Source: Thiospirochaeta perfilievii
GTDB lineage: Bacteria; Spirochaetota; Spirochaetia; DSM-2461
NCBI RefSeq assembly: GCF_008329945.1
Contig: NZ_CP035807.1
Coordinates: 1,922,001 to 1,986,000, forward strand
Direction of reading: 5' to 3'
Length of the DNA stretch: 64,000 nt
How positions within the stretch are numbered: position 1 is the first letter of the stretch; each line of letters starts with the position of its first letter. This document shows, in pieces, positions 4,499-7,606 of this stretch. Under the pieces are notes generated by a model, which saw nothing but the letters and a program-made list of their open reading frames with translations, was not told the DNA's origin and made no database searches. The position numbers were made by a program, and so were the translations under genes.

Positions 4499-4514
4499 AA
4501 CCGTGCAATTTAAT

Positions 4515-4599
4515 GGAGAGGTGTCCGAGTGGTCGATGGTGACGGTCTTGAAAACCGTTGTGTGTAATAGCACCGAGGGTTCGAATCCCTCCTTCTCCG
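4515..4599 (+). tRNA. tRNA-Ser (UGA)
   Basis: An 85-nt class II tRNA. The acceptor strands GGAGAGG and CTTCTCC pair with one G-U, the T-loop is GGTTCGAATCC, and the anticodon loop CTTGAAA carries TGA. A long variable arm typical of serine tRNA is present. The discriminator base is G73, the serine identity base, and CCA is not encoded. Confidence 0.95.
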
Positions 4600-4617
4600 A
4601 ATATTTAATTTTTTAAT

Positions 4618-4704
4618 GGAAAGGTGCGAGAGTGGCTGAACCGGGCTCCCTGCTAAGGAGTTGTATCCGTGAGGGTACCGGGGGTTCGAATCCCCCCCTT
4701 TCCG
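4618..4704 (+). tRNA. tRNA-Ser (GCU)
   Basis: An 87-nt class II tRNA 18 bases after the first. The acceptor GGAAAGG pairs perfectly with CCTTTCC and the anticodon loop CTGCTAA carries GCT, reading AGC/AGU. It has a long variable arm, discriminator G, and no encoded CCA. Confidence 0.95.
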
Positions 4705-4738
4705 TTTTTTTTTATAAACATTATTGTTTGTATTAAAG

Positions 4739-4823
<85 letters not shown>

Positions 4824-4828
4824 TATAA

Positions 4829-4950
<122 letters not shown>

Positions 4951-4973: not shown

Positions 4974-6689
4974 ATGGCATATGAAGTAACAGCTAATAGA
5001 AGAAGACCTCAAGTATTTCAAGATCTTGCTGGACAAGAATTTGTAGTTTCAACGCTAACTAGCGCAATCAAATCTAAAAGAATAGCTCATGCATATCTAT
5101 TTTCAGGGCCTAGAGGTGTAGGTAAAACATCTTCAGCACGAATTTTAGCTAAATCTCTTAATTGTAAAGAGGGTCCTACAGACTTACCGTGTGGTAAATG
5201 TAATAACTGTCGAGAAATAACAACCGGTAGCTCTATGGACGTTATAGAGATAGATGGAGCCTCTAATACTAGTGTTAATGATATAAGAGAGATTAAAGAT
5301 GAAGTACTATTTGCTCCTAACGGTTCTAAATATAAAATATATATAATCGATGAAGTTCATATGTTATCTAATAGTGCATTTAATGCCCTATTAAAAACTA
5401 TTGAAGAGCCACCAGAGTATATTATATTCATCTTTGCAACAACTGAGATTCATAAGGTTCCTGCTACTATAAGAAGTAGATGTCAACAATTTAACTTTAG
5501 ATTAATACCTACAGAGACTTTAAAGGAACTGTTAGTAGAAGCATGTACAGATATGAATATCAAATATAATGATGATGCTCTATTCTGGATTGCAAAAGAG
5601 GGAAATGGTTCATCAAGGGATGCATATACTCTTTATGATCAAATTGTCTCTTTTAGTGAAAATGATATAACTCTAGAGAAAATTAGAGAAAAATTAGGCC
5701 TAGTTGGATTAGATAATATGAATGATCTCGTTGAATCTATGGCAAAAAAAGACCCTACAGAAGTACTAAACAAGTGTGACTATATACTAAAGTCAGGTGT
5801 TGCTGTTGAGCAGTTTATCGTTGATTTAGCAGAGTATTTTAGAAATTTACTATTTTTAAATTATGGAATAAATAAAGAGTCTCTATTAGGCTGTTCTAGT
5901 GATCGATTTTCAAAAATATCTGTTGATAGCTTCAGTGTAATTCAATTAGAACACGCAGTAGATTTAATTTTAAAACTTTATAAGGATATTCGTTACTCAG
6001 TCAATCCCAGGTTTGAATTAGAACTACTTCTAAGTAGATTATCAACTTTGACTGATTATATCTCTAATGATGAAATATTAGATAAAATAAAAATTTTAAA
6101 AGAGTCTATTTCTGGAGGATCATTTACAACTGAACAGAAAGTGAAACCAAAAATAGATAATTTAGAAAAAAAAAAAACTATAAATATTGATCCACAACAA
6201 ATAGAAACTTCAAATCCAGCAGAACAGTTCTTTAATAAGTTCAAAACTGGTCATAAAAAGAGTCAAAGTGGAAAACAAGATAGAGTAGAGAGTCCTAGAG
6301 TAGAGAGTCCTAGAGTAGAGAGCCCTAGAGTAGAGAGTGAAGATAGTTTTAATATTTCCAAGGGTGAAAAAGTATCAATAGAAACTATTAAAAAAAGTGT
6401 ATTCAGAAAGTTAAGAGGAAGTAGTATTACCCTTGCATCTACACTTGAAAAAGCTGAAAGATGGGAATTGGTAGATAGTAATATATATTTAACATATAAA
6501 AACCCTTTTGAAGCTGCACTAGTTGAAAAAGAAAAAAGTAAAGTTTTAAGTTATATAAAAGAGATAGATAACACAATTAAGAGTATAAGCATAAATAAAT
6601 CAGAAATAAAAGATATTAATATTAACATACACGAAAACGATGAACAAATTGATAAAATTCTTACTATGTTTCGTGGTTCAATAGTTTAG
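4974..6689 (+). CDS. dnaX: DNA polymerase III subunits tau/gamma (clamp-loader ATPase)
   Basis: A 571-residue protein starting MAYEVTANRRRPQVFQDLAGQ, the usual DnaX N-terminus. The P-loop GPRGVGKTSSARILAKSLNC is followed by a zinc-binding set with PCGKCNNC, Walker B in YIIDEVHMLS and the SRC motif RSRCQQFNFR. Clamp-loader domains I-III end near residue 370. A low-complexity linker follows, containing a run of 12 A at codons 398-402 and four RVES(P) repeats, then a C-terminal domain likely to bind polymerase. An AGGA ribosome site precedes the ATG. It is the first gene of the common dnaX-ybaB-recR operon. Confidence 0.97.
   Translation: MAYEVTANRRRPQVFQDLAGQEFVVSTLTSAIKSKRIAHAYLFSGPRGVGKTSSARILAKSLNCKEGPTDLPCGKCNNCREITTGSSMDVIEIDGASNTSVNDIREIKDEVLFAPNGSKYKIYIIDEVHMLSNSAFNALLKTIEEPPEYIIFIFATTEIHKVPATIRSRCQQFNFRLIPTETLKELLVEACTDMNIKYNDDALFWIAKEGNGSSRDAYTLYDQIVSFSENDITLEKIREKLGLVGLDNMNDLVESMAKKDPTEVLNKCDYILKSGVAVEQFIVDLAEYFRNLLFLNYGINKESLLGCSSDRFSKISVDSFSVIQLEHAVDLILKLYKDIRYSVNPRFELELLLSRLSTLTDYISNDEILDKIKILKESISGGSFTTEQKVKPKIDNLEKKKTINIDPQQIETSNPAEQFFNKFKTGHKKSQSGKQDRVESPRVESPRVESPRVESEDSFNISKGEKVSIETIKKSVFRKLRGSSITLASTLEKAERWELVDSNIYLTYKNPFEAALVEKEKSKVLSYIKEIDNTIKSISINKSEIKDININIHENDEQIDKILTMFRGSIV
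6166..6177 (+). other. Run of 12 A in dnaX: probable slippage site producing a gamma-like short subunit
   Basis: Twelve A encode the lysines in LEKKKT at codons 398-402, just past clamp-loader domains I-III. The annotated frame reads on to residue 571. Gaining one A gives four more codons and then TGA. Losing one A (or gaining two) gives TAA after one leucine codon. Both slipped frames therefore yield a roughly 403-406 residue protein ending after domain III, as the gamma subunit does. In Thermus, polymerase slippage on nine A in dnaX does this; use here is inferred. Confidence 0.6.
6282..6340 (+). repeat. Tandem 15-bp repeat in the dnaX linker (RVESP units)
   Basis: Three full 15-bp units (6282-6296, 6297-6311, 6312-6326) and a fourth nearly complete unit encode RVESP-RVESP-RVESP-RVES. 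The units differ by a single base (agtcct versus agccct), which suggests recent in-frame expansion in a flexible linker. Confidence 0.9.
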
Positions 6690-6698
6690 GAGGATATA

Positions 6699-7022
6699 AT
6701 GGATTTTAACCCAGCAGAATTAATGAAAAACATCAGTAATATGAAGTCTCAGATGAAAGATGTTCAAGAGAAATTAAAAAACATTAAAGCTACAGGTTCA
6801 TCTGGAGGCGGTTTAGTAAAAATTGAGATGAATGGGGAGATGGTAATTGAAAAAATAACATTGGACCCTATAGCTGTAGATCCTAGGGATATAGATATGC
6901 TACAGGACCTAATTATAGCAGCTATAAATAATGCCCAAGCGAATGCTAAGGATAAAATTCAACAGGAGATTGGTTCTGCAGCTAATTTAGATCTACCCTT
7001 CGATTTTGGTGGTTTAAAATAA
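6699..7022 (+). CDS. YbaB/EbfC family nucleoid-associated protein
   Basis: This 107-residue protein has the family layout. An N-terminal helix reads NPAELMKNISNMKSQMKDVQEKL, a Gly-rich turn follows (GSSGGGLVKIEMNGE), and then comes the IDPRD-like segment seen here as AVDPRDIDMLQDLI and a final helix. YbaB/EbfC forms dimers that bind DNA and coat the nucleoid; the Borrelia homologue was described as EbfC. It follows dnaX with a GGAGG ribosome site, and its TAA overlaps the ATG of recR by one base (TAATG), so the two are translationally coupled. Confidence 0.95.
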   Translation: MDFNPAELMKNISNMKSQMKDVQEKLKNIKATGSSGGGLVKIEMNGEMVIEKITLDPIAVDPRDIDMLQDLIIAAINNAQANAKDKIQQEIGSAANLDLPFDFGGLK

Positions 7023-7606
7023 TGGAATCCCTTGATAATCTAATTAGTTCATTCTCATCTCTACCTTCTATTGGTAAAAAAAGTGCAACTAGATTAGCTT
7101 ATTTTATATTAAAAAGTGATAAAAGAATTGCAGAGAAATTAGCCCATGATCTATTAAATATTAAAGTTATGGTCAAAAATTGTTCTCAATGTGGAACATA
7201 TACAGAGGGAGATATTTGTAACATATGTTCTAGCCTTAACAGGGATAAAATTATCTGTGTTGTAGAGCAGTCTCAGGATGTATATTTTATAGATTCTACA
7301 GGGGAATATAGCGGGTATTTTCATGTTTTAAATGGCGTTTTATCTCCACTAAATGGAGTGGGTCCAAAAGAGTTAAAATTAGATAAATTAGTAAATCGTA
7401 TTAAGGAAGAGGGTTTTAAAGAGGTTATAATAGCTACAAACCCAACTTTGGAAGGAGATACTACAGCACTTTATATTCTTAAGCTACTAGAGGGCATAGA
7501 TGTAAAAGTCTCAAGGATTGCTTCAGGAATGCCTGTAGGAGGAGATATGGAGTATATAGATAAACAGACCCTAAGTAGATCACTTAAAGGTCGTATAAGC
7601 TATTAA
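7022..7606 (+). CDS. recR: Recombination mediator RecR
   Basis: A 194-residue protein. It has an N-terminal HhH (FSSLPSIGKKSATRLAYF), a four-cysteine zinc finger (CSQCGTYTEGDICNIC), a Toprim domain beginning VVEQSQDVYFID, and the C-terminal ATNPTLEGDTTALYI and GMPVGGDMEYID segments. RecR loads RecA at gaps with RecO and RecF. Its position after dnaX and ybaB is conserved in many phyla. Its last four bases overlap the convergent nucleotidase gene. Confidence 0.97.
   Translation: MESLDNLISSFSSLPSIGKKSATRLAYFILKSDKRIAEKLAHDLLNIKVMVKNCSQCGTYTEGDICNICSSLNRDKIICVVEQSQDVYFIDSTGEYSGYFHVLNGVLSPLNGVGPKELKLDKLVNRIKEEGFKEVIIATNPTLEGDTTALYILKLLEGIDVKVSRIASGMPVGGDMEYIDKQTLSRSLKGRISY

Follow-up and report, generated by a model that had tools for sequence, protein, structure and literature searches.

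The dnaX gene of the spirochaete Thiospirochaeta perfilievii carries a run of 12 A residues that probably acts as a programmed site of transcriptional slippage, as in Thermus dnaX, so that one gene would supply both full-length tau and a shorter gamma-like protein. We found the tract in a 64,000-nucleotide stretch of this genome (the window) and compared it with dnaX genes sampled across Spirochaetia. More than a quarter of these genes carry a similar run in the same linker, and in 13 of them the layout is reversed, so that gamma is templated and the tau tail is encoded in another frame. Judged from these genomes, it is the comparative evidence from relatives, not the single gene, that decides for function.

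A twelve-adenine tract in the dnaX linker

The window gene lies in a dnaX–ybaB–recR cluster of a 3.70-Mb genome, and its nearest dnaX relatives are Spirochaetales and Treponema records. The features of the locus are as follows.

4974–6689, + strand: dnaX, tau reading frame of 571 aa (open reading frame; NCBIfam PRK06647 equivalog, 684 bits, over cut-off)
Residues 232–371 of the dnaX product: DNA_pol3_gamma3, domain III (Pfam)
6166–6177, + strand: A12, proposed slippage tract, codons 398–402 (sequence; sole A12 of the genome)
6181–6183, + strand: TAA ending the frame entered with one A fewer or two more (402-aa gamma-like product predicted)
6188–6190, + strand: TGA ending the frame entered with one A more (405-aa gamma-like product predicted)
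6178–6686, + strand: tau-specific part, linker and C-terminal domain with final motif MFRGSIV (translation; tail family aligned across Spirochaetia)
6281–6338, + strand: 15-bp tandem repeat of about 4 copies that encodes RVESP in the tau linker (Tandem Repeats Finder)
6699–7022, + strand: ybaB/ebfC, next gene in the cluster (NCBIfam TIGR00103)
7022–7606, + strand: recR (NCBIfam TIGR00615)

Within the 571-aa frame the tract is read as GAA AAA AAA AAA ACT (E398-K-K-K-T), and it is placed in the linker because residue 371, the last of Pfam domain III, lies 27 codons earlier. One A fewer changes the reading to ...EKKKL*, whereas one A more gives ...EKKKNYKY*. A sequence-only reading of this DNA had described a run of 12 A at codons 398–402, after clamp-loader domains I–III, with TAA one codon on in one slipped frame and TGA a few codons on in the other; all of this held, and its estimate of 403–406 residues for the slipped products lies within one residue of the 402 and 405 aa found here. 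The gene thus combines at least nine A downstream of the clamp-loader domains with a templated tau and early stops in both other frames, as in Thermus. The two-ORF layout, in which gamma is templated, is absent from the window gene, the 571-aa frame being open, and is found in the 13 relatives described below.

According to the proposed mechanism, RNA polymerase would realign on the A-tract and generate mRNAs with 12 ± n A residues. Messages with 12, 15 or 9 A would encode full tau, and all other lengths would stop 1–4 codons past the tract to give a clamp-loader subunit of 402–405 aa that retains domains I–III and lacks the tau tail. We infer that the frame change occurs in transcription, as well as its efficiency and the entry of gamma into the clamp loader.

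Two further features border this region. The RVESP-coding repeat sits just 3′ of the A12 site, and three tRNA genes and a small SRP RNA (4515–4939) lie immediately upstream of dnaX, overlapped by a minus-strand open reading frame (4510–4899) that is probably spurious.

Depletion of long A-runs and conservation across Spirochaetia

Long A-runs are scarce in this genome. The run-length decay seen in the window, extrapolated to the genome, predicts about 473 tracts of at least 10 and about 80 of at least 12, against 13 and 1 observed by pattern counts, an approximately 36-fold depletion of runs of at least 10. The dnaX tract is the longest of the 13 (both strands counted), the only A12 in the whole 3.7 Mb with none on the other strand, and also the sole A/T run of 12. 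Most of the other 12 tracts are intergenic or at a gene end; just two (L200 and L205) fall inside open reading frames of more than 200 aa; each lies close to the 5′ end of its frame and may be a start-site artefact. Baranov et al. (PMC1088944) described how AT-rich genomes select against runs prone to slippage, and the genome-wide scarcity seen here is a signature of such selection, bearing out the earlier expectation that long runs are selected against. The chance that any of the 13 tracts would fall sense-strand in the dnaX linker is 4e-4.

The window gene alone is no proof of function, because an A12 arises with P = 0.32 given the peptide EKKKT and the codon use of the gene, and 19% of the positions in this dnaX have stops as close as these in both other frames (p about 0.19). 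Stop proximity in this gene was accordingly rejected as proof, being not significant. The view of the sequence-only reading that retention of the run suggests function is not proved by the window taken singly and gains its support from the dnaX genes of relatives. The same reading had proposed Thermus-like slippage yielding tau and gamma, an interpretation that the relatives support.

Our comparison covered 109 dnaX genes of Spirochaetia, drawn from 35 families, with the window genome as G000. A run of A9–A12 is present in the linker after domain III in 31 of the 109, spanning 15 genera, 9 families and GC contents of 31–61%, and the 31 runs differ in codon phase and flanks. The sister species G001 keeps A12 though its flanks have diverged from those of the window; of the four other genera in the window's family that yielded a dnaX, three have A10–A12; and eight further families have A9–A11. 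The run is not universal: dnaX of genus g3 and of part of g2, both in the window's family, lacks it. Conservation of the run and its stops in relatives, proposed as a check, is borne out in these families, though not universally.

Eighteen of the 31 genes are tau-templated, and in all but G049 both slipped frames stop within 14 codons. This count includes G016 despite its out-of-frame sequence; a gamma-templated assignment of G016 was rejected, as an ambiguous stretch near codon 260 shifts the frame. The layout of the window gene, with tau open and both slipped frames closed, recurs in G001, G006, G011, G020 and four g2 genomes. Relatives with 50–61% GC also carry the run, and in 9 of 18 GC-richer genes it is improbable by synonymous re-sampling (P 0.0018–0.036). 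Relative to tau, early closure of both off-frames is commoner after the tract than at other places in the genes (Fisher over 15 genera, 3e-6).

Several other dnaX genes show related or divergent arrangements. In family f6, L006, L009 and L123 (G030, G055 and G090) have an A10 further downstream, at codons 415–419, where the C-terminal domain begins (RKKLTL), and both slipped frames stop; this tract perhaps has an independent origin. Linkers with A9–A10 and stops within 16 codons in both slipped frames also occur in L039, L051, L055, L085 and L096, which come from a 68% GC Spirochaetaceae MAG and from Ignavibacteria, Bacteroidetes, Verrucomicrobiota and Gemmata records. The dnaX frames of L143 (G336) and L148 (G374) end at 443 and 419 aa with no A-run, for which other recoding, mutation or sequencing error may be candidate causes.

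Gamma-templated relatives and changes of layout between close species

In the remaining 13 of the 31 genes, from seven genera, the zero frame stops no more than 7 codons from the tract start, giving products of 386–412 aa, and the tail is encoded in another frame. A tau-tail profile searched against the other frames of these 13 genomes matched strongly in G100, G014, G022, G005, G043 and G010 (E 1e-30 to 1e-34), weakly in G116, G106, G126, G046 and G080 (1e-5 to 1e-7), and gave no match in G094 or G037. In the nine pairs compared outside g1, it is the third codon positions of the tau frame that take most of the substitutions; the excess is weak for G000 versus G001 (69/52/82). On the tail profile and these third-position substitutions, tau needs a frame change at the tract in the gamma-templated species, and its frame is under protein-level selection. 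Annotation of these genes of about 400 aa as "truncated dnaX" is probably wrong. The change needed is +1 nt in 12 of the 13 genes; in the exception, G005, the homopolymer may have been misread in sequencing. Internal re-initiation was rejected as a source of the tau tail, as no gamma-templated gene has an ATG in the first 14 codons past the tract, and G126 and G037 have no ATG at all after it.

Family f13 shares one frame offset in 6 of 6 genomes from three genera: five genomes of two genera have A10, and the third genus has A9 at the same offset. In L135–L139 (G126, G080, G106, G094 and G116) of this family, the out-of-frame tau tail has shrunk to 54–99 aa, comprising a low-complexity linker and a conserved end, F[RQ].[IV]FKG[ED][IV]. 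From these sequences the core of the tau domain seems to have been lost while the A10 and the frame relation were kept, and the end motif may represent the polymerase-binding end.

Both layouts also occur within a single genus, with tracts that differ by 1–2 A between homologous flanks. In genus g4, whose N-terminal DNA is 73–82% identical, G020 has A10 and is tau-templated, and the other four genomes are gamma-templated: G022 with A12 (tau at 13), G005 with A10 (tau at 9 or 12), and G014 and G010 with A11 (tau at 12). Likewise in g51, G086 has A9 and templates tau whereas G100 has A10 and templates gamma. On a quick dnaX tree that retains open forks, the genes switch between the tau and gamma states at least 7 times, and the run is gained or lost at least 12 times. 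We regard this interconversion inside one genus as the most interesting part of the analysis. A tentative reading, to which we give somewhat less than even weight, is that dnaX decoding is nearly frame-agnostic in these spirochaetes: were slippage very frequent, tau and gamma would be made at any templated length, so the tract could drift modulo 3 and the nominal product flip between sister species with cell output unchanged. The close-species pairs that differ by 1–2 A between homologous flanks are a ready natural experiment; if both members of a pair make tau and gamma, their ratio is set by slippage and not by the templated frame.

Alternative explanations and relation to known systems

Ribosomal frameshifting or sliding on AAA codons could in principle supply the product that is not templated, gamma where the genome spells tau and tau where it spells gamma. 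The direction required in 12 of the 13 gamma-templated genomes is that of a −1 ribosomal shift (+1 nt), the run is preceded by G-rich stretches in g4 and g5, and tRNA-Lys(UUU) is the sole lysine tRNA found among 59 tRNA genes, a condition under which shifting on A_AAA_AAG is favoured in E. coli (PMC5009743). However, the frame out of reach for a −1 shift is also closed early (p = 0.011 in tau-templated genomes alone), and the tracts exceed what a heptamer needs and occur in all three codon phases. Hairpins flanking the tract, tested across genera, were found no more often than by chance (upstream p = 0.57, downstream p = 0.996): tidy 5′ hairpins exist in G011, G005, G020 and G001, yet there is no excess across genera, and the folding energy downstream of the G000 tract is 0. 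A Shine–Dalgarno-like element was not found before the run in G000 (3/6 match), and C follows the tract. G005 moreover would need the opposite direction, and direction differences among orthologues are a published sign of transcriptional realignment (PMC3711429). RNA polymerase slippage is favoured over the E. coli mechanism because both off-frames close early, including the one unreachable by a −1 shift, and there is neither a hairpin excess nor a Shine–Dalgarno-like element in G000. We nevertheless hold ribosome sliding to be unlikely rather than negligible, because of the 12 of 13 direction, the possible error in G005 and the single lysine tRNA.

The remaining explanations fare worse. That the run is incidental poly-lysine of an AT-rich genome, with only tau made and slippage as noise, would fit the unexceptional probabilities in the window gene (P = 0.32 and 19%) and the part of the window's family that lacks the run, but is improbable given that long runs are purged genome-wide, that the tract recurs in relatives of 50–61% GC and that 13 genomes cannot make tau without a frame change. 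A contingency tract, in which replication slippage would switch dnaX between tau and gamma among cells, matches the differing lengths between close species with homologous flanks; because tau is expected to be essential, cells in an off state would die unless slippage in expression compensated, and the constant f13 offset, shared by five A10 genomes from two genera and by the A9 of a third genus, also makes phase variation very improbable. Equally hard to credit is the creation of gamma-templated genes by homopolymer assembly or sequencing errors. Many relatives are draft assemblies, and G016 is out of frame through its ambiguous stretch, but the offset common to all six f13 genomes and the spread of gamma-templated dnaX over 13 genomes and seven genera argue against error, which would in any case leave the tau-templated window gene untouched.

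Polymerase slippage at dnaX, the reading we prefer, has precedents: Thermus-type slippage on an A-run, the finding of Larsen et al. 2000 as recounted in PMC1088944 and PMC5009743, is already published, as are two-ORF dnaX genes that carry 10 A (PMC3711429). Like the Thermus thermophilus gene, the window gene has an A-run with tau templated, near stops in both other frames and a gamma-like product, here predicted; unlike it, the tract is A12 rather than A9, the host is a spirochaete and slippage is a prediction. Thermus has two lysine tRNAs, in contrast to tRNA-Lys(UUU) as the only one found here. Production of tau and gamma from one gene also recalls the −1 ribosomal frameshift of E. coli dnaX (PMC3711429), but the present site lacks the combination of A_AAA_AAG, Shine–Dalgarno-like element and hairpin and has both off-frames closed.

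The GeneTack study (PMC3711429) gives 17 two-ORF dnaX genes in 12 genera, nine of them with 10 A. These resemble our gamma-templated relatives (f13, g4, G043 and G100), which have A9–A12 and mostly the same direction, and differ from the window gene, which is tau-templated, and from the occurrence here of both layouts in one genus, 1–2 A apart. In the literature searched we found no spirochaete case of dnaX slippage, though the GeneTack genera may include spirochaetes; the only statement on dnaX recoding in spirochaetes that this literature yielded is that Borrelia dnaX has no frameshift element and that tau may be its sole product (PMC9879097). Our reading would add spirochaetes to the bacteria in which polymerase slippage supplies gamma. 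Long A-runs are likewise known to make RNA polymerase slip in IS elements and endosymbionts (PMC1088944, PMC3017870), but those cases concern transposases or decaying genes, unlike the conserved two-product housekeeping gene proposed here.
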